This document shows, one piece after another, positions 25,029 to 64,000 of a stretch of DNA of 64,000 nt. The position numbers and the translations under genes are program-made. Position 1 is the stretch's first letter. Each line of letters begins with the position of its first letter. The DNA is from Tetmemena sp. SeJ-2015 (lineage: Eukaryota > Ciliophora > Spirotrichea > Sporadotrichida > Oxytrichidae), in assembly GCA_027382625.1 (NCBI GenBank), contig JAJKFJ010020786.1:1-64000 (forward strand), written 5' to 3'. The notes beneath the pieces are model-generated. The model was not told where the DNA came from. It did no database searches and saw nothing but the letters and a program-made list of their open reading frames with translations.

Positions 25029-26017
25029 TATTCCCTTACATAGTGATATCTTAAGTTATGGAAGATCCTCAAAACTTTTGGAGTTACTTTGTTAGGATGC
25101 TCGATGTTCTCAGGCTAGTGACTCTTTGCCTCTCTCTACTAAATGTTTTCAAAGCTTTTTCGACACTTACTTCTTCATTATGACTACAATTTCAATTGTG
25201 GGATATTACTCACCCGTGACCTCGTTTGAAGGAAAAATAAGCATCATTGTCCTCATGGCGATAGTGGTGGTCGTTATTCCTTAGTATTCCTCTAAATTGG
25301 TGCAGCTTATAAGCTCAAAGTCAGTCTATGCCAGGAGACATTAACCTTTAAATAATTATACCTCACATAGTCCTAATTGGCTCAGTCTCTTCACATATTG
25401 CATACAGATGTGCTTTATATTGAAGGAAACCCACTCGATCAGAGAGAATAAAATATTTATCATATGCAAGCTATCTTACAACGCACAAAAGGAGGACACC
25501 CACACCATTTTGCAAGCAATGGTAATCAAGAACTATCTCCAGTCCAAGGGAGACAAAAATAAGAACTCATATACTCAAGTATGCATGCAACTGCTTAAAC
25601 CAGAAAGCATCACTCACTATGAGCTATCACTATAATTTAATATTTTTAGTGTTAATCATTAATTTTATAAACAAAGAAGACTTGAAGAACGATCAAATAG
25701 TCTGCATTGAGTCTTGAATAAGTGTTCTCAGTTTTAATCACGAACCTTATTAAATCTTCCAAGAATCCTCCTAAGGAGATAATAGAATCAAAGGATAAGA
25801 AGAACTGGACTTGGCTGCACGATTACTGGCAAGGCAAGAAGTATGAAATCTACAGAATTGAAATACCGAATACCTACGCAGACCAGTCTTTCAACAGTAT
25901 CGCTTTGGAAGTATATAAGGACTAAGGATTCGTTCTTTTTGCTCTAGAAATAGTGGAACCTATGTAAGAATAGCATTTGATAAATTTTGGATATATCATC
26001 GCCCCTGATAAAGAAGA
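25029..26017 (+). other. Scrambled MDS cluster A (alternate channel segments)
   Basis: Four segments alternate in the protein with those of cluster B. They are 25029-25127 (pointers TATTCCCTTACA in, AGTGACTCTTT out), 25149-25391 (TCAAAGCTTTT in, AGTCTCTT out), 25467-25713 (CAAGCTAT in, ATTGAGTC out) and 25731-26017 (GTTTTAATCA in, GATAAAGAAGA out). All are in + orientation. Short spacers of 17-75 bp separate them. Confidence 0.92.
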
Positions 26018-29000
26018 TACCTATTTATGATCCATTAAACGATTTAATCTTGCTTAAATGGAGGGAGGGTGGGAGGATACATATTTTATTTAAGACTTTG
26101 GAGACAAGCCTTATTGTAAGGTTTTGATGTTTTACTCATTTTATTCTTGAACTGATATAACTCTCCAAGACTCTAAACTTGCTGATAATCGAGATGAAAA
26201 TTGAATCTTCATGATGAAGAGCTAACTGGAAAGTAATTACAATTTTATAGTCCAAACATTAACAAAATATCAAGAGATAAGCAAATTAATAATAAGTAAC
26301 TGAGCTAATTTCCTAAGATAATATAGCATTTCTTACTCGATAATCCACTGCTTTATCATTTGATGAATCAATTGAATGGAATTATAGGACTCACTACTGT
26401 GTCAAGCTTATTAAGGATTAAAGAGAGAATTAAAAATTATATCATCTTCCGATACCTTCGAATATTTTCAATATTAAAGATACATTGTAATCAATCAAAT
26501 TAATTGGATGAAGAGGCTTCTAAATATACTTAAAAGAGAAATAAAAGCTTTACTTAAAGAAGGAGACCAGAAACAATGATGATTATTTATCATTTAAAAG
26601 ACATTTAGGCAAAGAATAGCAGAGAGAGTTAGATGTTATAGTATTTTTATAAATTACTTTCATTCATTATCTTAATGTTTCAATTTCTAATTGAGTACTT
26701 GCTAAGATTAATGACAACCAAGAACATTCAAAACTTTTTGTTATGCATGGATAACTATATTGACATTCTCACAATATTCCCTTACAGTAAAGTTATTTAA
26801 GTGACTCTTTTTAGGACCTTGAAATACTTTGAGGATGATATAATGCGTGAGTTAGCAAGAATCATGATAGGCGCAGTTCTTCTCACTTTTGGATTTTCTG
26901 CTTATATTCAACTGATAGAAAACAGAGAGCATCTGCTCACAGGAAATCTTCAGGAATATCAAAGCTTTTAAATTGAAATAGTAGAGACATTATAAATCCA
27001 TTGACAAGATACCTTATTTATGATAATCATTCAGGAATTTGAGTCTCTTAGATAGCGCTATTTAACTTTCTAGAAGAGTACTTTCATTAGGATCACGGTT
27101 AGTATGGAAGGCATTGTGTTATAATGATGCCTTAAAGACCAGATCCTACTTTTGAAATGGAACTTATGCAGTCTAAGTATGCAACGAGTGTGCTTTTAAA
27201 ACTTTAGATTTATCATCAGAGAGATCTTAAGCGATGCCTAGTGGAAAAGTCAAAAGCAGTTGTCATTTTAAGTGACAAGCTATTTATATGGAAGGGTAAA
27301 AATTGAGTCAATGAAGCTAAGTTTGTTAGCTAAGAGTTGTCTTTGTCCAGGACTGGTGGTTTTAATCAAGAATAATTGTATTAAGGAAATAGTAGTCAAC
27401 GATAGATTAAATGGTGAAATACTTCTAAACCCAGGATCCTAAAAGTTACCAAGACCACAAGGCTCAAATGTCGTGTACACATATTTTGGATTTGATATGT
27501 AGATAAGATAAAGAAGAAGCAGAGGAAATCTTCAAAAAACAGAGCTTTGATTTTTATGATTTTAAGCAAGGCGTTGTCAATTGCAAAGACTTTGGAGAAT
27601 AAAAAAATCAATCATTTTAGAAACAGCTTAACATGCAAAAGAACGCATTCGGATTTGGAGGCATAACAATCCTAAATATTTCAAGGAATTTAAATGTAAT
27701 CCTAATAATTTATGAATGGGCGAAACAGAGCTTGAAAATGAGAATGCTGTTCAGGTTGACAATATTGAAGGGTAAGTACATTTAATGGCCAACTTTCTTT
27801 TTATAGAGATTTGCTGAATATGTGCCACAAAGCTTCAAAAGAAGTACTTAAGCAAGATATTGAATTCAAAACTCTTCAAGATTATGACTATGATTTGCTG
27901 AGAATCATATTGTAATATGCGGAATGGTTGAAAACATTATTCATTTCGTGATGCCCTTAAGAGCAGACCATCTGATAGATCCTTCTCCGATAGTTATTCT
28001 TCATGAATGATTTAAAATAAAGTAATGGTAACAGCTTAGATACTTTACTGAGATTTATTTTGTAAAGGGTTCTCCATTAAATGAGAGCTCCTATGATAGG
28101 GTAAATATTGAGAAGGCAAAATAAGTAGTCATCCTAACTCCAAAAATGAATGAATAGTATAATCAAGAGATAAGGGAACTAAAACCGATTCTAAAAAGGG
28201 TGGAGACTCTTCAGAAGACTATATGATGGGGAAGGATGAGGAAACACTTCTAGATGCGAAAACAATATTCAAGTATAATATCATAAAGAAGAAGAATCCT
28301 AGGGTTAAGGTAGTAACTGAGCTTAACAATTGATGAAGAAATACGAGTATGATCAGACGCCTACCTTTGCGTCGGGTGAAGTATACCTTTCCTCTTTAAT
28401 GGACTCTAAAATTAAAGATGCAAGCTTATTACAATCCAGCACTTCCAACTGTTTTGAGATAGCTTATTGTAGGAGAAACTAAGAAGAAAAGAAGAAGGTT
28501 GAATTCTGCGAACCACAACACTGGGTATGGCTCAATATAAGCTTTACTAGGAATGAATAGTATAATTCCAGATGGAGACTTTTCTCACATTAAGACTAGC
28601 AATCTCTATCATCTTCGTTTTTTAATTACCTTCGAAGTTTATAGGAAAGACTTACTAGAAACTTTTCTCTCATTTGACCAAAAAAAGGTTCATGATACCT
28701 CTAGGACTCTACAGAACTGAATACGTGTCCTTCTCTTCTTTGGATGATTTTGAACAAAATTTAAAGAGAAAGACAATGAGAACAACTCCCTAGGACGAGG
28801 GTGGTTCAGAGATTAAGTATGTAGTGACTAACCCTGCATAGGATTTGATATTGAAGGATGATGATGTAGTCTTTGTACTTGCTTAAGCTGACCCCAGAGA
28901 GCACAACACTTGGGATGAGGTGAGACGCTCAGGTTCAACTCTGGATCTTGATAAACTAGATTCGCAGAAGGAGACACATTTCAAAAATGAATGATGATTT

Positions 29001-29589: not shown

Positions 29590-30756
29590 ATGGAAGAATA
29601 CTACGCAAACAAATCAATCCTTATCACAGGAGCTACAGGTTTCTTAGGTATGCAAAGATTCGCTAATTTATTCTGATAGGAAAGGTCATTTTGGAAAAGA
29701 TGATGAGAAGTTTAACAGGAGTCAAAGCTATATATTTGGCTATCAATGCAAAAGTAAGTTTGCTAAAAATGGTGAATCAAAATATTAAATGCACATATCA
29801 CAAATAATTATACAAATGTGAATCGTCGAGTTCGTGTGCATCATTTTCAGTGACGTTGCTATATCATAAACTGCGCACTTAAGATTAGACGCACTAAATT
29901 ATATTCTCAACTAGCATAGAGTTTATTAATGAATTGCATAGGGTGACAATAACGCAGAGTACGGTAGATTCAAAAAGGAGATTCAGGAATCTCTAGTGTT
30001 TGATCGCATGAGGACTGATCTAGGGAACAAAGAATTTAAACGTATCATTAAGCAGAAAGTGCGCCCTATTGCAATGGACTTGGTAATTATTAGCATTCAA
30101 TTCTAATCTATATTGATAGTCAAAGGATGATCTGGGGTTAAATGATTAAGTAAGAGACAGACTTTAGCAAGATCTAAGTCATTATAATTACTTCTGTTTC
30201 GTTTAAGGGTTATAATGAATCTAAACGTTATAATAAACTGTGCAGGAGATGTGGAGTTCAACACCAGGCTAGATTAGGCAGTGAAAGTTAATGTGACTGG
30301 CCCTCTAAGTTTGCTGCGTCTAGCTGAAACTTGCCAGAACTTCCAATGCTTTGTGCAAGTCTCCACTTGCTTTGCACTTATGGACAAGGATGGATTGATC
30401 GAAGAGAAATTGCTAAGCTCTCCCGTTGATTGGCCTGCAATCTATTCTTAAATTCTAAAAATGACTCTAGTCGATATAGAGCATTATGGAAATAAATTCT
30501 CGTTCTCATTTAATAATTAAATGAGGAAAGACTATTATGGGAAATTTCGCTAATACATATGTTTTCACTAAGAGAATGGCTGAGCATTTGCTAGTAGAGA
30601 GCAACACCAAGGGAATTCCTATGACAATCATTAGACCTTCAATCATCGGAGCATCTCTTGAGGAGCCGGTACCAGGTTGGACTGACTCCATTGGTTTAAT
30701 GGGTGGCATCTATTTGCTAGCTGGATTGGGTATTTTGAGAGAAATTCCAGGCAAGC
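29590..30756 (+). CDS. Fatty acyl-CoA reductase, 5' portion only
   Basis: The gene starts MEEYYANKSILITGATGFLG, the NADPH-binding Rossmann motif of alcohol-forming fatty acyl-CoA reductases. These enzymes make the fatty alcohols used in ether lipids and waxes. Also present are SLVFDRMRTDLGNKEFKRII, NVIINCAGDVEFNTRL, VNVTGPLSLLRLAETC, CFVQVSTCFA, the catalytic YxxxK in NTYVFTKRMAEHLL, and TIIRPSIIGASLEEPVPGW. A 32-bp intron (29648-29679) and a 188-bp one (29754-29941) fit GT-AG. Further inserts lie near 30085-30125, 30170-30210 and 30440-30540. Homology stops after LREIPGK at 30756. The rest of the reductase (roughly half) is not found nearby, so the gene is truncated, or its remaining MDSs lie elsewhere as for the neighbouring channel. 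Confidence 0.85.
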
Positions 30757-31407
30757 ATTATTCCTTTAATTCAATATCAAAATTAAAGATAGTAAAGACT
30801 AAAGTTGCTGAATATAATAATCTAGTTTTAACCAAGGAGAGTAATTATATATTCAAAGAGATAGGCTATTTTGCACTTTTTTAAAAATGGAGGATATTAT
30901 TTTTATTTTAGGAAAGAACTTAAAATGACACCAATAATTAGAGACATCCTAACTCAATTTTAATTAAAAACTTCAAGCAAGAAGATGATTCATTAGCTTA
31001 TTTAATTTAATATAGTTGAGCGTTCTTCGAAAATTATTTGCATAAGAGATTTTTTAACAATTAAAATGAAGAAAATTAACTCATTTTTTTTAATTGAAAA
31101 GGTGGTATTAAAATTTAAGCTTTTTAAATATTTGGATTATCAATTCGTGTTATTTTTAATTTATTAATATTTTTCTTACTTAAATGGACTATTTAAAGTA
31201 TCAATAGCAGATTTTATCGCACCCAACTATTTTTTCAGAAATTTTAATTTTCCAATAAATTTTATAATATATCGGTTTAAATTTAAAGCCGACAGGAAAC
31301 AGATTCAATTTTTAACTATACATTTATCTTAATAAAAGATAATATTTTCTCGGGAGTCTCAATAATCTGGGAATGACGATTTGTAAGAATAAAGTAGAAG
31401 CAGCATA
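30757..31407. other. AT-rich stretch after the truncated reductase
   Basis: Immediately after the last conserved reductase codon the frame runs into an uncharacterised 40-codon tail and then AT-rich DNA. No reductase sequence continues. It is probably eliminated or intergenic DNA. Confidence 0.45.
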
Positions 31408-37330: not shown

Positions 37331-39020
37331 ATGACTTTCATTCTTAGGGAAAAAGCGCAACTCAAAGGACAAAGAGCTCACAAAAAGGGAAGCCTTTAGA
37401 GCTTAAGGAAGATCATAAAAGGACATGAAATAGTAAAGATGTTCTTCACGAAGAAAGGATATATTACTATTTATTTACAGTTTAAAATTTTTGAGGAAAG
37501 AGTCATCTTAGACAAGGCTAAAACATTTCAATAGCTTTGTAGAGTAAAGCTATAATAAGAGTACTGAAAAGAGAAAAGACAAAGAGAAGGAAAAACTTAT
37601 TGTGGAAAGAGCAAAGGGAAAAACTTAGATCATAGATGAAAAAATATAGGCTAAACTCAATAAACAGAAGAAAGCTCAAAGGGTAAGTTATATAATCAAT
37701 CTTTTCATTCAGCATCTGTTGATTCTGATTATAAAGGGCTTTATTTTAGGAATTCTACAAGTGCTAGAAAGTAGTTGGATAAGGGGCATTTGGAATTGTT
37801 TACAAAGCATTTTTATGCGATATCCTTTTGTTTTAGATAGCAAAATGCATGGAGACGGATGAAATAGTTGCTGTAAAGAAAGTTCTGTAAGACAAAAAAT
37901 ACAAGAATAGAGAACTTGACATATTACAAGAACTGGTGCACCCAAATATCCTAAACTTAAAGCATCACTTTTTCTCGACAGATGAGAGTAATGTAAGTTA
38001 AGATTTTTTACTGATAATGATATGGTAGGTTACAGATGAGTATCTGAACATTGTCACTGACTACTATTCTGACACCTTATCTAAAGTTTGTCAATATAAA
38101 CTTTTTTAACTATGGAAAATATTTCTCCAGGTAGAAGAAAAACCTTCCCTACTTTTTGACTAAGCTATACATGTTTCAGCTTCTCAGAGGACTCGCTTAT
38201 TTGCATGCCAAACATATCGCGCACAGAGACATCATTTCAAATTTATTTTAGAATCATTTTATGAACACAAAATTTTATCAAACCTCAAAATCTGTTGATA
38301 GATTCCGAAACTCAAAAGTTGGTCATATGTGATTTTGGAAGTGCCAAGGTCTTAGCTTCCAAGAAAACTGATGTTTCAGTAGCCTATATAAGCACAAGAT
38401 ACTATCGAGCACCTGAGCTGCTCTTGAATTACTAAAGATATGGCGTGGCGATCGATCTTTGGGCAGCAGGATGTGTTCTAGGTGAAATGCTAAGAGGAGG
38501 AAGAGTTCTTTTTGAAGGTGATAGCAATTTATAATGCCTTAAAATTGTTGAAAATAAGACATCGATATCTGAATACAGATCAGCTGGTCAAGATTATTCA
38601 GCTTTTCGGGACACCGACAGAATCCCAAGTAGCACAAATGAATCCAGAGTTTCCTTATAAGGATCTAGTGTAGATAAAGAAGTCCGACATCAAAAAGTCT
38701 TTCTCTTCAAGTGTACCTCCTGAGGGAATCTCTCTGCTCGTTTAATTGTTGCAGTATGATCTTTAAAAGCGAATATCTGCTATAGATGCACTCGCACATC
38801 CTTTCTTCGATGATCTAAAAGATAAATAGGCCTCTCTTCCAAATGGAGCCCCTCTATAAGTTTTATTCGCAATTTTATGTTTTTAAACATCATACCTGAG
38901 CTTTTTGAGTTCACTATAGAAGAGATGGAGTCGACAAATATTAGGCATTTAGAAACAGTTATTCCAGGTTGGAGGAAGGACAAAAGGTATAAGAATCGAA
39001 TTAAAAAAGTGTTTCTATGA
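37331..39020 (+). CDS. GSK3/shaggy-like protein kinase
   Basis: The kinase reads [54 protein letters not shown] then [15 protein letters not shown], the GSK3 activation loop [31 protein letters not shown] and [16 protein letters not shown]. The C-terminus is [16 protein letters not shown] and then KKVFL at TGA 39018-39020. Introns lie at 37683-37749 and 37993-38038. Five IESs (37806, 38095, 38231, 38526, 38861) must be removed. The N-terminal extension is Lys/Glu-rich ([18 protein letters not shown]) and its exact start is uncertain; 37331 is only the first plausible ATG after the upstream gene. The family phosphorylates primed substrates in developmental and ciliary pathways. Confidence 0.88.
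37806..37838 (+). other. IES, 33 bp, pointer AGCA
   Basis: AGCA lies at 37806-37809 and 37839-37842. Removal joins GIVYKA to [13 protein letters not shown]. Confidence 0.8.
38095..38131 (+). other. IES, 37 bp, pointer TA
   Basis: TA lies at 38095 and 38132. Removal restores the frame DTLSKVCQ to [16 protein letters not shown] 45-bp GT-AG reading of the same region gives the wrong downstream frame, so an IES is preferred. Confidence 0.6.
38231..38276 (+). other. IES, 46 bp, pointer ATCA, inside the HRD catalytic loop
   Basis: ATCA lies at 38231-38234 and 38277-38280. It splits the catalytic loop HRDIKPQN between I and K, and exact deletion restores it. There are no GT-AG ends. Confidence 0.92.
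38526..38571 (+). other. IES, 46 bp, pointer AAT
   Basis: AAT lies at 38526-38528 and 38572-38574. Deletion gives [20 protein letters not shown], the standard GSK3 sequence context. Confidence 0.88.
38861..38880 (+). other. IES, 20 bp, pointer TTTT
   Basis: TTTT lies at 38861-38864 and 38881-38884. Deletion shifts the frame so that [18 protein letters not shown] reads through. Confidence 0.7.
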
Positions 39021-42200: not shown

Positions 42201-45200
42201 AGTATCAGGCGATGGCTGCACCAAGTACTGTCAAGTTTATATATTTGATTAGAAAATGATTATTTGTGAAGTTGAAACAAATTGGGTATGTACGCCCTCA
42301 TTTACTACGGTAATGGGGCCAAGTGTTTGCGGATTTAGTTGCAGAGACGGAACTAATCCAACGGTCTTCTCAAACGCAACTGTAACGATTAAAAAGAAGG
42401 ATTGTGATGACGGAAATACGGTTGAAGATGATGGCTGCTCCTCTTAGTGCTTTACGAATACAGGTTGGATTTCCTTAATACTATATTTAATATATAACTA
42501 TTTACTAATTTGCGCTAATGGCACTTCAACTGCTCCTGATACTTGCAAAGAAATCTGTGGAGATGGTCTAGATTACCATACTTATCCTTGCGATGACGGC
42601 AAATTATAAATTCAATATCAAAGTACCAATTTTAATTAGCTGATTAAATCATTTTTAAAATGAATAAACTTAGGCAACTATGTGAGTGGTGATGGTTGCA
42701 GTGCAACGTGTTAAGTAGAGGCAGGTTACACATGCACAGGAGGAGACTTCCCCTGGCCAGACACTTGCACAATGGGTTGTGCGGTCAGAGCTTTTGACTA
42801 TGGTGAATAGGCATGCATTGATGCTAACTCTGCTAATCTAGATAATGCATTACTTATTTAAGAATAGATGGCTGTAATAGCAATTGTGAAGTAGAATAAG
42901 GCTGGGAGTGCACCAGAGGCTCTCCCACAGGAATTGATACTTGCACTGAAGTTTGCGGAGACTCCTGGGATATGGATCAGTACTAATGTGATGATGGAAA
43001 CGTCAATTATTTAAAACTACCTTACTTTCTTAAAGATTATCCTTTCTCACTTTATGTCGATGGATGCTCTTGGAATACGTGCCTAATAGATGCTGGCTAT
43101 GACTGTCGATACTCAGATTGGTTTTCGAGAGACGCTTGCAATGAGATATGTGGAGACGGTTATAATTACGGAGTTTAGGGATAATGGAACTATCTAATTA
43201 TTTTTCTTAGGTGCTATCTTAACAACAACGAATGTGACGATGGAAATTAAAGACCTGGGGATGGATGCAGTGATGATTGCAGAATTGAAGAAGGATGGGA
43301 TTGCTCGGGTGGCAACACAGGCAGAGAGGATGTATGCACTCCTACATGCGGAGACTGATATAATTTAATATATATATATATATATATATTATTAGGTTAA
43401 TCAATGTAATAGGTTTTTATAATTTAAACAACAATTAATAACTATTATTAAATTTCAGATAGAATTTTAAATTGACTGGATGCATAATTACAGAGAGCAT
43501 TGCGATGATGGAAATTTACAAAATGGAGATGGATGCACTTCTGCTTGTATCGAAGAACCGGGTTTTAGATGTACAAGAGGACAACATGAATGGAAAGATA
43601 CTTGCTACGAAATTTGTGGTGATGGAAGAAATGTAGGCTATTTCGTTTGCGATGATGGAAATACCGTGAGTGGAGATGGCTGTAGCTCAACCTGCACTCT
43701 TGAATCAGGTTTCTAGTGCACTGGAGGCTCAAAGACTACCGCTGATACTTGCAGAGAAATTTGTGGTGATGGAAAGAATCTTGGTCAAGTTGAATCAATA
43801 GATAAAATTGTTGAGTTTAAGTAGAATGTGATGACGGCAATCTACTGACATCAGATGGGTGCGATGGCACATGTGACATTGAAGCAGGTTATGCCTGTAC
43901 TCATCCAGTGAACGGAAAAGACACTTGTCTTGAAGTTTGTGGAGATGGTCTTAACCTTGGGCGATTTCAATGTGACGATGGAAACTTTATAGACAATCGT
44001 TAACTTTAGATTGAATATTAAGCATTCACACATCATCTTTATAAAATGATGGGTGCGACAAAAATTGCTAAATTGAAACTTGTTGGGTCTGTAACACTGC
44101 CTCGCCTACTTACTGTTATATTCCTTCATACAACAGCATCAGCATAGCTAATCTTAAGAAATAAATTATTCTGGTATTTAATTTTAAATAATGCGACCAT
44201 GGCTGATGATTAGTCAAATGTGACAATAAACTTTAACAACTCAATTATTCTTCTTTCAGGATACGATATATACAAGGCAATAACTGTCACTCTGGACGGC
44301 CCTCTGTCACCCTATAATTTCACATGGTATTTAAATGATGTGAATCTCATCTATGGAGGTGGAAAGACGCAGTAGTTTTCTTTATAATATTACCTATTTA
44401 AGATGAGAATAGTTTGCTATCATGCTTAATTACCTAGACACTTAGCTAATTATATTTTAAATAGATTACTGAAATTATAATTGGAAGTTACTATGAAACC
44501 CTTAAAGTGTGCTTAACGAATGTATCTCAAATAAAACATTGGTACTGCAACCAATATGTTAAAGATACTCCTTGCTGGGATTTCCCACTTTACTGATAAA
44601 TATTTATTTAACCCCATTAAATTTACTATGGAAAATCAGCTCCTTAGTCTTATTGTAAAAACATTGGTTTTGCCTCTTACGGGCTTTACGCTGTAGGGGG
44701 TCAACTTGCACTAGGACTAAATACAAATATTTATCTCTAAGTTATAATTAACTGGTGTTCTCTCTTCTTGGTTACTCTGCAGGTGGTGCGTGGGATGCTT
44801 TTTATGTACTCTAATTCACCCATTTACTGCCTACTATCTCCATGTCATCGCCATCATGCGCAACCTATTTTTACTAGACGTACAAGTGGGCTAATCTCTA
44901 AGATAGTTTCATTTCAACTTGGCTAAGAAATGCCATTCCTAATGACCAAAATTTAATGATTAGTCAAGTTTAATCGTATTTTGACCTTGGAAACATGACT
45001 TAAATGAAGCCTCCAACTTTCAATTTCTATCAAAATGGATACTACTACAATAACCTCATTTACAACATAGCTGATACTCTTACTCTAGCCATGCTCGCTC
45101 TGCTAGTGGTACCACTTGTATCAGTAATTAAACTACTCTTGCCCAACGCAGTGGTGATTGAAAATATGGACAGATTTATTAGAGGAAGGTATCTTATTGC

Positions 45201-58453: not shown

Positions 58454-58753
58454 ATGAAATAGTTTGTTTAAATATGTTTAGATGTTTAAATTTGGATTGT
58501 GGATGACTTTGATGATGAGCAAGCGCACAGCTAGGTGCCTGCTGCTATTTCCTTTAGTAAAAAGCTTCAGAAATTCGTGAACAGCAATCAAGTCTCTCTC
58601 CCTCTCGATGCGATGAACTGTATTCTAAGCGTTGTTCTCGCAAGCTTATACATATACTCAACTTTTGATCCTCTTAATTTCGCGAAGAAACAATGGACTC
58701 ACTGGTATCCAGTCTTTCTCATGATAGCACACATCTATTTCCTAATTGAGTAC
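58454..58753 (+). CDS. First MDS of the BK-type potassium channel (S1-S2), 32 kb from the rest
   Basis: The frame opens MKQFVQICLDVQIWIVDDF, passes DDEQAHSQVPAAISFSKKLQ, then S1 (DAMNCILSVVLASLYIYSTF) and S2 (WYPVFLMIAHIYFLIEY). It ends in CTAATTGAGTAC (58742-58753), which recurs at 26687-26698 at the start of the segment reading LLRLMTTKN and IDILTIFP (S2-S3). The join keeps frame and supplies exactly the helices missing from the main locus. Beyond 58753 the + frame loses channel character. It lies between two minus-strand genes, so other genes separate the channel's pieces. Confidence 0.85.
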
Positions 58754-61442
58754 ATCAAAATATTCTTGATAAAAATGACTCCTTTTGATTTCTCAGATAA
58801 CTCGCTTATTTTAGTAGATCCATTTATGATATCATACCCCACGAGCGTCTCTCTGCCTTTCCTAATTTTATCATGGTTAATTCCAATTTCTTGAGAGAAA
58901 TTATTATCGCTGCTCAACTCATTACCTCTCTTAGCCTGTTCTAATAATTTTTGGGCCACTCTTTCGGATTCTTAGATGGAGATCTAATCTCTTGGCTGTG
59001 ACTTGTCATCCTTCCTATCTAGTAATTTGACAAGCTTAGCTTTATGATTCATTTCTAGATCTCTTATTCTCTCCCTCTAATTTATCTAAGCTATCATCTG
59101 TTGTTTGAGTTACCTAACTCGCTTATTTGCATGAGATAAGTTTTCTAGGTTTTAAATTCTGTGATCCACTATGTTTGAGGAATTATTCATTTATTTTCTA
59201 TCTAAAGAGACAGCAGACAAGTTATTCTTTAAATAAATCAATCTTTGAAATCCCAATCTTTAAAGATTAGGAAAAATCTGCTGCTTTACTGTAGTCTTTG
59301 AACTCTTAAGTGATAGGATCGAAGCTCTGTGTCCCGGAATAATCTTATCGCAGAGTTAGATTCACGAGAGTATTATTTTATTTATTTCCAAATATAATGC
59401 ATTTAAAGTTTGATTAATGGATTATTAGAGAAAGGGGATTATTTTTAAAGCTATGATTTATTAAATCTAGGGTTTGATGAATAAAAGTTTTGTTCATCCT
59501 CTTATGAATTTTATTTATAAGAAAGATTTTGCTTTATTTTCAATCCATTTCCGAGTCTTAAGTTAGGAATTGCCATACAAATTATTTATTAAATTTAATG
59601 CCATGCTACGGTTTGCATATTCTTGGTCTTAAGCAAGAAATTGGTATTAATCAACTTGATCTCTCGCCAAGTTGGAAGAAGATGCATTGAGTTAAGCTCC
59701 ATTTATTATTTGAAGATGAATTTAGCAGCAATTACTCTTTCTTAAATCTCGCATGGTGAGAGGGGCGGGAGTTCACATCTTACAACTTAGTGGTGGTATC
59801 CTTATCTGAGATAATTAAAGGCGCTGATTCTCTTAGGTTATAAGACTTTAAACCAACTTGAGGATTTTGAGAAGAATGGGAGTTGAATTAAGTCAAAGGA
59901 TGATGAAGAGGAGGTTTCATTATGATGATGATTAATTCAATATTTTATTTATCTGCTGCTGTTGTAAATTTCTAATGATAATTCCTAACTTAAACAATAT
60001 TTACCAGAAAATCATTATCATTTAAACATTTCTACATCTTTAGATCATTTTGAATGAATCAGAGTCATAAATTTATTTCATTCAAAATATATTATTGTGA
60101 GAGAAGTTTCTTCAAATTAAAAAATAATTTAAAATTAAAAAAATTTATTGCAAAATCTGGGAGATTTTTTAAAATTAAGTTTATCCCATCTAACTTCTAC
60201 TTTGTTAAATTATATCTCTTTCATTGTTAGGATTAGAATATTTAGGTATATTATTGAAAATTTTAGCTTCTTGGGCGCCAAAGATATTTTAAAGGGTCTT
60301 TTTAGTGGTCGGGAATTACTTTATTGTTTAAATTTTCCAAAGGTCACAAAAAATCTCTGGTGGCTTAGAAAATTTTGAAACAAAAAATTAAATAAAATTG
60401 TGTTGGTCTTGTTGGAGGATGGCTAATCAGATACTCACTTTGATAGTTTCGAGTTTCAGAATTATTGTTCTTTTGAGATCTTGAAAATAATCCATCTCTA
60501 GAAGCTTCTTATCTCCTTGAAGCAGTAGGCCTGTTTTCAAAAGTAGGAGCAGGTCCTGTAAAATTCATGTCCTTTTACTTGGATTTCAAAGATATTTAAG
60601 GATGATTTAAAATTTGATTCATATATTCAATTTCATGAATTCTTTGAGTGTTTTGATCTGTATATGAACCTAGATTTGAAAGTCCTCCTATTTTGAGTCT
60701 TATCTTTTAATCTGAGTAGGCCACTTAAGGCAAGTCAAGTTATTCTTTTCTGTTTTATTTCTGTGAGCTCTATAGATTCTATCTTGAAAGGGAATTGCTA
60801 TTTAATGAAATATTCTGAGTCAAATTTTCATCACGAGCTAACTACTAATGAGAACTCGTTTGTTATTCCTGATTTAGGTTTGAATAGTTTTGTATGTTGC
60901 TCCACATATCTCTAGTTTATGCCTCTTACTATCGATTTGTAAGCTGCTTATCATTCCAACTCAAAATATCAAACTTATTTCTCTCCATCTACTGATACTT
61001 TTTAATTCCTTTTTTCACTATAAAACAAGTTATTTAGAACTCTAAGCCTTTTTACTCTTTAATTATTCAAAAAATATTCTGTAGTAGTTTAACTTACTTT
61101 TAGCTTACTACTAGTGATCCATTTTAAGAAGCTAGAGTTGGTGCACTTTATTTTCAAAAGCCTAGGGAGCTTGGTGTCTGCCTAACTTTATATTCAGTTC
61201 TAGTTGCTACTTATATTGAGCATCATAAATATCTCTAACGTTCATTTTTTCTGGAAGCGTTCCGGAGATAGGTTGCCCAAATTATTATACGCTTTGTAAA
61301 GAAGGCACTGCTCCTGATTAAACTAAATCTTCAGCTTATCTTTTTCTTCTAAGGTACTCCAGAGTCCATGTTTTGTCAACTATTCATAAATAAATTTAAA
61401 CTGGACCAGCTGTGCGTTCTTCACCCATTGCAATATATTCAT
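58754..61442 (-). CDS. Gln-rich coiled-coil hypothetical protein
   Basis: A minus gene starts MNILQWVKNAQLVQFKFIYE at 61442. It contains SGTLPEKMNVRDIYDAQYKQ, NIKLGRHQAPQAFENKVHQL, then low-complexity sequence. A coiled-coil end follows: ANKRVRQLKQQMIAQINQRE, LEMNHKAKLVKLLDRKDDKS, RVAQKLLEQAKRGNELSSDN. Its 3' border is unclear because the open frame continues antisense into the channel segment; the true stop is probably near 58760-58900 after IES removal. No family was recognised, and the unity of the gene is uncertain. Confidence 0.45.
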
Positions 61443-62098: not shown

Positions 62099-64000
62099 TC
62101 ACATCTTTGCCATAAAAGGGAAATCAGTTAGGACAGATCTCCTGATGCCGAAAGGAAGCTTGTCTTTGTCCTTCTTGCTTCCTGACTTAGGGTTAGCAGG
62201 TCCTTCAGAAAGATATAGAATAAAAATTGCAACAGTCTTAGGATCTTGCTGCCCGTTTTATGAGATTTGAGCAATTTGGTGTTTATTTAGAACTTCATTG
62301 ATGTTGCTAACCGATCTATAGCTTGAGATTTTGTCAACTAAGTCTTGCAACTTCTTTTCGTTTCTCTTGTATTCTTATAAAATAAAAAATCCAGTTATTC
62401 TTTAGAAAGCTGAAGGAAGACGCTTGCTCTTTGGAGAATCTTCATATCTAGCAGAGCCTAGACTGCGTTCTTGAAGCTTTCTTAGTTGCATGATTCAAAG
62501 AAGGGGATGGTGCCCTATTCAAAGAGGGACTCTCCGAACCATTGAATGCGCTTAGGAATAGCAGATGACTCCACTTACTTATTCTTTACCATGGAGAGGG
62601 TGAACAAAGCTGTTATGTAATAAGAGTCCACCATCTACCAAACCAAGGAAGCAGCAAAGATAATAAGAGTTTCGTGAGATGCCTTGAGAAATATAAACAT
62701 TTACTATGATGAGAGCAAGATTTTGATTGTTAGGACCACATTTAGCAAGTATTCTTCTATCAACCATGTAATTTACTACTTTCTCGAAGATCTGTGGGTT
62801 CTTTTCTGTAATTCTCTATTCAATAACTTCCTCTCTCTTCAGAAGATCTGCTATTTTTAATTTTCACAATGTTATAAAATTAACTATAATGCTAAGAATA
62901 CTGTCTTTTGGAAGACTTCTTGATAGCTAACTCCGACATTTGCGTTCCAGATTTAGTCTCCTGAGAAGCAAGATATCATAGTCGCCAAGATACATCCTTC
63001 GTTGAAGTAAACATAGTTCAGGGGGTTTCTATAGTAACCAAGCATGAGAATGTTCTTGTAATCGCTCTTAGGTATGATTCTTGGCTCATAAATATCTCTC
63101 TTTTTATTCAAGTAGTCATGCAAATAGTTAAGAAAATTAAAGGTCAATAATGTAAAGAAATTATACAAATGGAAGAGACCGATGTTAAGAGTATTGGTAC
63201 TAGGAAGTTATTTTTAAATAAGTTTATTGATTCATAGAATTATATTTTAAGTCCCTCAGTAGAGAGCATTACTCCTCTTTAAGTGAGATCGAGACCAAGC
63301 CATTTAACTCTCTTCTCTAAATCCTCATCGTTTATACCCTTTCTGTGAAGAAGTAAAATCGAAGAAACCAAGGTTGTTGGCATCATGCGAACATGTCTTT
63401 GCATATCATAGATAATCGTCAAGCCCAGGTCGTTAGTGATTGATATCTTATCTTTTTCGTTAGTGAAAGGGTCTAGTTTTGGGTTAGCAATAGTCTTCTA
63501 AGCAGAATACTCTGAAAAGTTTATGGGATCGCAAAAATCGAGGTAGATGGTTCCAAGATTCATGCTGAAAATTTGAACAGCCTTTATTATGCGACCTAAG
63601 CTCTCTTTCACCTTTTCCTCTCCTGTAAGCTCAAAGGGGAAAGTTTCTCCCTCGAGAGTACGAGTGTAATTGATAGTCACAGGGATGAAAGTTAGTTCCT
63701 CAACTCTCTTCTTGTAAAAAGCTTGGGTTAGAATTGAAATGAACCCATACTTAGGAGTGAGTATTTATTGGTCCTTGATCTTGTTCCCTCAATGAAAAAC
63801 TCCATGTTTAGATTATCGCTAGCTAAAAGAGTTACATACTCCTTGAAAATCACTTTGTACAAGTCATCTCCCTTAAAAGTTCTGCGCATGAAGAAAGCTC
63901 CAGAGCTTCTAAGTAGTTAGGCCACAAACATGATATCATTTAAGTTAACATCTTACAAAAAAATGATATTGAGGAAATCTTCTCCGGCACAAATGTGAGG
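62099..64000 (-). CDS. Dihydroxyacetone-phosphate acyltransferase (GNPAT-like), 3' part, runs off right edge
   Basis: Reading in from the right edge on the minus strand, the frame shows [52 protein letters not shown] and [16 protein letters not shown] (the GAFFxRR, FxEGTRSR and P-S-Y-R blocks of glycerolipid acyltransferases). Then come [20 protein letters not shown] and [13 protein letters not shown]. Such enzymes start ether-lipid synthesis in peroxisomes. The C-terminus is TDFPFMAKM before TGA 62099-62101. AKM fits a type 1 peroxisomal targeting signal, as in animal homologues ending AKL. A 33-bp IES (63930-63962) and others are present. The catalytic HxxxxD block lies beyond 64000. Confidence 0.85.
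63930..63962 (-). other. IES, 33 bp, pointer ATATCAT
   Basis: ATGATAT (plus strand) lies at 63930-63936 and 63963-63969. Removal joins GEDFLNI to [14 protein letters not shown]. Confidence 0.85.

Follow-up and report, generated by a model that had tools for sequence, protein, structure and literature searches.

How far apart can the pieces of one gene lie on a germline chromosome and still be joined into a working reading frame? This question is raised by a + strand segment at positions 58454–58753 of the window, the whole 64,000-base stretch of ciliate germline DNA analyzed here (bases 1–64000 of contig C1866, which has 188,428 bases). We assign this segment, with a probability of about 0.9, as MDS1 of a scrambled gene for a Slo/BK-like channel, joining MDS2 at position 26687; the join itself is one that we infer. 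With one piece and one 12-bp pointer at issue, the locus would be a clean case for how far apart joinable pieces may lie.

The scrambled channel gene

The Slo/BK-like channel gene forms an odd-even scrambled locus at 25.0–29.3 kb on the + strand. Its coding pieces, open under code 6 (glutamine for TAA and TAG, stop for TGA), fall into two + strand clusters (25.0–26.0 kb and 26.7–27.5 kb), and short exact repeats are common to the ends of the pieces. MDS2 to MDS17 were obtained by alternating between these clusters. MDS2 (26687–26786) holds the end of S2 and S3 and is connected by pointer TATTCCCTTACA to MDS3 (25029–25127, S3–S4 region), from which AGTGACTCTTT leads to MDS4 (26800–26969, S4–S5) and TCAAAGCTTTT on to MDS5 (25149–25343), carrying the pore and S6. 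Pointer GAGACATTA connects MDS5 to the short MDS6 (26984–27014), and ATACCT connects MDS6 to MDS7 (25358–25391), where RCK1 starts; RCK1 is continued by MDS8 (27042–27196), reached through AGTCTCTT. The path then runs through TGTGCTTT to MDS9 (25409–25447), ATCAGAGAGA to MDS10 (27215–27283), and CAAGCTAT to MDS11 (25467–25632), again in RCK1, which is followed by a non-scrambled IES and MDS12 (25668–25713). Beyond it, ATTGAGTC leads to MDS13 (27302–27368), GTTTTAATCA to MDS14 (25731–25954), GAAATAGT to MDS15 (27386–27491), ATTTTGGAT to MDS16 (25984–26017), and GATAAAGAAGA to MDS17. From the start of MDS17 at 27507 up to about 29338, the rest of the gene seems, by frame reading, to be colinear, though in changing frames. 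All of these pieces are on the + strand.

Including the one to MDS1, there are 16 joins. Fifteen are scrambled, with pointers of 6 to 12 bp (mean, 9.4 bp); for Oxytricha, an excerpt of PMC6765146 gives averages of 11 bp for scrambled and 5 bp for non-scrambled pointers. The MDS11–MDS12 join is a plain non-scrambled IES, and its 2-bp pointer, TA, was assigned from frame alone and is hence weaker. The pieces are out of order in the germline (3, 5, 7, 9, 11, 12, 14, 16, then 2, 4, 6, 8, 10, 13, 15, 17 and onward, then other genes, then 1), each of the 15 scrambled joins has a shared repeat, and the reading frame is open. The joined MDS1–MDS11 sequence has 421 codons and no stop, and the frame from 58454 stays open across all 16 joins, figures to be read in light of the procedure: joins were picked by homology and shared words were then sought near the expected borders, so that neither pointer nor frame is independent of that choice.

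The first 391 residues of the joined protein match Ion_trans (PF00520; 3.3e-7, 30.2 bits, cut-off 25) and Slo-like RCK (PF22614; 1.2e-22, 80.3 bits, cut-off 24), a transmembrane ion-channel domain followed by a Slo-type RCK, and they match BK channels in the PDB at 1.9e-22. This is the architecture of Slo/BK channels, which likewise combine Ion_trans with a Slo-like RCK and align to BK structures; the filter here reads VGYYS, not GYG. In published odd-even scrambling, too, MDSs alternate between two clusters (excerpts of PMC5940158 and PMC9797194), and here both clusters are on the same strand. The difference lies in MDS1, which would be expected in the odd cluster but is found away from it.

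The segment at 58 kb and its proposed pointer

The first-pass annotation of this DNA had described 58454–58753 as encoding S1 and the first part of S2 on the + strand, and the segment and its frame were found as described. An ATG stands at 58454, and the 100 codons that follow from it (code 6) are open and cover the N-terminus, S1, and S2 up to the motif LIEY, the C-terminal end reading ...HWYPVFLMIAHIYFLIEY. The 12-mer CTAATTGAGTAC at 58742–58753, which would close MDS1, is identical to 26687–26698, which would open MDS2, both on the + strand and with LIEY in frame at both places. These are the only two copies in the window, where shuffled sequence has a mean of 0.02.

S1 and the first part of S2 were also said to be missing from the main locus, and this was borne out: in a tblastn search of 84 kb with 14 relatives (E 0.001), they were not found at 25–29 kb, and the relatives placed S1–S2 at 58.5 kb. 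The exception was at 26.6 kb, where P0001, P0002, and P0004 matched a hydrophobic stretch with gaps; aligned gap-free, this stretch scored poorly. Across the assembly, the S1 segment had matches in contigs C1866 and C3720 only.

By itself, the identity of the two 12-mers is weak evidence. A match of at least 12 between the two 500-nt neighborhoods arose in 47 of 1,000 Markov shuffles, and all four LIEY codons would be identical between two independent paralogs about 2% of the time. Because the 12-mer encodes a conserved motif, it is thus only moderately improbable, a 2 to 5% event. In the assembly as a whole CTAATTGAGTAC has 18 matches (20 for the reversed control), four of which are this locus and its duplicate. 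At the 14 others no channel flanks were found, with scores against the channel of -26 to -6 before the word and -23 to 11 after it, where the true continuation scores 81.

Relatives across the junction

Since the 12-mer alone is too weak, the 58-kb piece was assigned by means of relatives from other genomes. The joined 391 residues retrieved 14 proteins and the natural protein P0001 retrieved 17, giving 29 distinct relatives in all. The coverage threshold was passed by 14 of these, the other 15 lying outside the junction. P0003 and P0016 begin no earlier than the junction and were left out, leaving 12 relatives that span both sides. The unjoined 170-residue reading through 58753 had no protein match at E 10, compared with 14 for the joined 391 residues, a contrast that was not used as a control because the two queries differ in length and content.

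All 12 relatives change tracks at the 12-mer. Over the 20 residues before LIEY, or as many as the relative has, each scores the 58-kb DNA higher than the DNA directly upstream of 26687; over the 20 residues after LIEY, each scores the 26-kb DNA (3 to 52) higher than the 58-kb read-through (-24 to 0). The changeover is clear in 9 of the 12. The other three, P0009, P0012, and P0027, are distant relatives whose alignments are gapped close to the junction; their scores before it are 5, 2, and 7 on the 58-kb side versus -9, -13, and 5 locally, P0027 being a near-tie at 7 versus 5. Of the 20 residues before the junction, the late-starting P0015 covers only the last 8. Eight of the 12 are gap-free over the 32 columns around the junction. 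The closest relative, P0001, comes from a 1,477-base metagenome contig and aligns with the joined protein over 260 residues without a gap through the junction (64%). On the 58-kb track it has 9 of 20 residues identical before the junction and 0 of 20 after; on the 26-kb track the counts are 1 of 20 and 7 of 20. It is this changeover of homology, as read from the alignments, that is taken to turn the weak evidence of the 12-mer into strong evidence.

The ranking of relatives is less uniform. Among the five relatives from the joined-391 search that cover both parts, P0001 is the top match of both, with 33 of 67 and 130 of 189 residues identical. The ranking of the others differs between the N-terminal part, where P0009 (25/59) and P0012 (26/60) are better than P0002 (30/78), and the body, where P0009 (108/288) and P0012 (104/272) are worse than P0002 (115/217), and this counts against the assignment.

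Two other readings of the junction bear on these scores. In one, the 5' end of a second channel gene lies at 58454 and the gene continues directly beyond 58753 (YIKIFLIKMTPFDFSDNSLILVDPFMISYPTSVSL...), its LIEY codons matching those of the main gene by conservation. The + frame is indeed open to 58891, VDPFMISYPTSVSL resembles an S3 helix by eye, the LIEY codons would coincide at the roughly 2% rate given above, and P0002 can be aligned into the read-through with gaps at 35%. A first impression that the S3-like read-through after 58753 was such a paralog's own S3 was rejected on the relatives' scores. With all 12 relatives favoring the 26-kb track after the pointer, and with no further gene body this close in type found in the assembly, where the more distant Slo-like genes of C4068, C259, and C2498 apparently have S1 and S2 of their own, we consider a coincidence between paralogs very improbable.

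Alternatively, MDS2 may start upstream of 26687 and contain its own S2 in FYKLLSFIILMFQ (about 26648–26686), with the S1 piece to which it is joined lying elsewhere. The stretch is hydrophobic and in frame, and search matches drift into it. Yet it scores -21 to 7, and every one of the 12 relatives scores the 58-kb segment higher (7 versus 5 for P0027), no other S1 piece was found in two relative-based searches of the assembly, and the GC content of 26587–26686 is 22%, compared with 30% in MDS2. A local S2 is, in our estimate, even less credible than a coincidence between paralogs. Joining of 26687 to the adjacent 26058–26686, which had been named as the result that would overturn a distant MDS1, likewise fared worse than the 58-kb segment in all 12 relatives, with the near-tie of P0027 and weak scores for P0009 and P0012. 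The assignment of 58454–58753 as MDS1 is thus the reading that we retain.

Other candidates and the 32-kb spacing

Apart from 58.5 kb in C1866 and its duplicate, no second S1–S2 of this type was found in the assembly (146 Mb, 5213 contigs) at E values up to 10. The S1–S2 queries were taken from relatives (P0001 and P0002) and are independent of the proposed join; the search scores the best candidates only, and an unassembled second copy of MDS1 may exist. Elsewhere, C2369 has one match that is short and weak (E 0.0098), and C4068, C259, and C2498 carry Slo-like genes that are more distant. The latter three appear, by eye from their translations, to carry their own S1 and S2, and so seem not to need the 58-kb piece. 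The Slo-like genes of C4068 and C259 (L036 and L037) are nearly identical and lie on opposite strands of their contigs; they may be alleles, recent paralogs, or products of a duplicated assembly.

The exact physical spacing of 32 kb is held with somewhat less confidence than the assignment, since the linkage rests on one assembly. The two pieces could belong together while their spacing is an assembly artifact. The assembly is single and redundant, C1866 and C3720 being the same where compared; the window has no N. We regard an artifact of this kind as unlikely, if less so than either alternative reading of the junction. C3720 shows no difference from C1866 in the first 70,000 bases or in 2,000 bases at 150 kb (150–152 kb), and we take it to be a duplicate. 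It was dropped as independent support for the 32-kb linkage, as it is identical to C1866 wherever compared. This letter-for-letter identity also indicates that the assembly is, at least partly, redundant.

The interval between the channel and MDS1

From the 3' end of the channel gene (about 29.3 kb) to 58454, the interval measures 29 kb. The first-pass annotation had placed more than ten unrelated genes in it, several on the opposite strand; that count was left unconfirmed, with three Pfam families detected at 29.4–58.4 kb, all on the + strand. They are NAD_binding_4 (Male sterility protein) at 30209–30758, in two frames, which we take to be of the fatty acyl-CoA reductase type; a protein kinase domain at 37756–38567, split over three frames; and DUF4215 at 43591–43695, at 26.9 bits just short of the cut-off of 27. 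The three frames of the kinase follow in order within 0.8 kb, and the gene is therefore probably non-scrambled, with short IESs or introns.

Three-frame Pfam scans of the minus strand at 43.85–58.45 kb gave nothing at E 0.01, as did a Pfam scan of the + strand at 43.85–50.0 kb; within the interval, the scans covered the + strand from 29.4 to 50.0 kb and the minus strand from 43.85 to 58.45 kb. Four of nine single minus-strand ORFs at 43.85–58.45 kb had matches (best E, 0.0049, 0.037, 0.25, and 1.5), all under curated cut-offs. A codon-usage score separated genes poorly. Pfam can miss ciliate genes that IESs interrupt, so that further intervening genes are likely.

Just beyond and overlapping the end of MDS1, the minus strand at 58741–59140 had the look of a Qb-SNARE, a candidate dropped for want of support from either Pfam or the PDB. 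Farther on, the minus strand carries a GPAT_C domain (Glycerol-3-phosphate acyltransferase C-terminal domain) at 62428–63632 in two frames, which means that one or more IESs or introns interrupt it.

Precedent and a proposed route

One protein's germline DNA had been described here as both interleaved and dispersed, and the locus fits that description, with MDS1 at 58 kb and the other MDSs at 25.0–29.3 kb. Scrambled genes with dispersed or nested MDSs are known from Oxytricha and Tetmemena, and this locus adds one instance. In the DNA polymerase alpha gene of Oxytricha and Stylonychia, the MDSs of one gene also occupy two germline places; the parts of PMC7599177 that treat it put those loci more than 3 kb apart, whereas here a lone first MDS lies 32 kb downstream on the same strand. 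In this assembly, three Pfam-supported families, including one with a borderline score, lie between MDS1 and MDS2. Russian doll loci of Oxytricha and Tetmemena similarly have MDSs of other genes between the MDSs of one gene (excerpts of PMC5940158 and PMC9797194). In a Russian doll, a single IES encloses the complete MDS set of another gene; here, domains of other genes lie between MDS1 and MDS2, and the locus may be of this kind. Within the same excerpts, a conserved pointer bridges three other loci (PMC9797194), and 1,301 of 15,811 macronuclear contigs of Oxytricha have other MDSs nested inside (PMC5940158). Chromosome isoforms derived from two paralogous germline loci are described in an excerpt of PMC6937825, and the portions of PMC1805493 and PMC4684698 consulted hold nothing on germline distances.

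In Oxytricha, long template RNAs from the parental macronucleus direct reordering together with pointers, and MDSs may come from distant loci (PMC7599177, in part). By a similar route, MDS1 and MDS2 would be brought together on a parental RNA template during development of the somatic nucleus. The 3' end of MDS1 would be joined to MDS2, 32 kb away and 5' on the germline chromosome, leaving one CTAATTGAGTAC copy; MDS2 to MDS17 would be joined alternately from the two interleaved clusters, and the remainder would follow in order to about 29.3 kb. The earlier claim that the guide for descrambling has to bridge 32 kb or more is not established: a template that carries the finished gene, as we infer, need not span the germline interval, and it is enough for the two DNA ends to meet. 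The genes between presumably must be cut out as separate chromosomes.

The odd-even weave predicts MDS1 just upstream of MDS3, at about 25.0 kb, from which MDS1 alone would have moved about 33 kb. No relic of MDS1 was found just before MDS3 (tblastn, 14 relatives, E 0.001). Tentatively, and with the odds against it, we suggest that the lone MDS1 left an established odd-even locus for space beside unrelated genes, 33 kb off on the far side of the gene, where joining guided in trans would keep it usable. If this is true, neither distance nor intervening chromosome ends set a limit on where an MDS may lie. A comparison of this gene among related ciliates would put a date on the move and reveal whether joining becomes less accurate with distance.

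The selectivity filter

The usual channel filter motif is GYG. In MDS5, the filter (25180–25218) reads MTTISIVGYYSPV, VGYYS, with GYY in place of GYG. Among the relatives, P0001 has VGYYS, P0009 and P0012 have LGYYS, P0002 has IGYNS, P0004 has IGYNN, and P0003 has VGYGS, and the more distant C4068 paralog has TVGYGD. Since the third position of the filter differs within this family, ion selectivity may differ as well.
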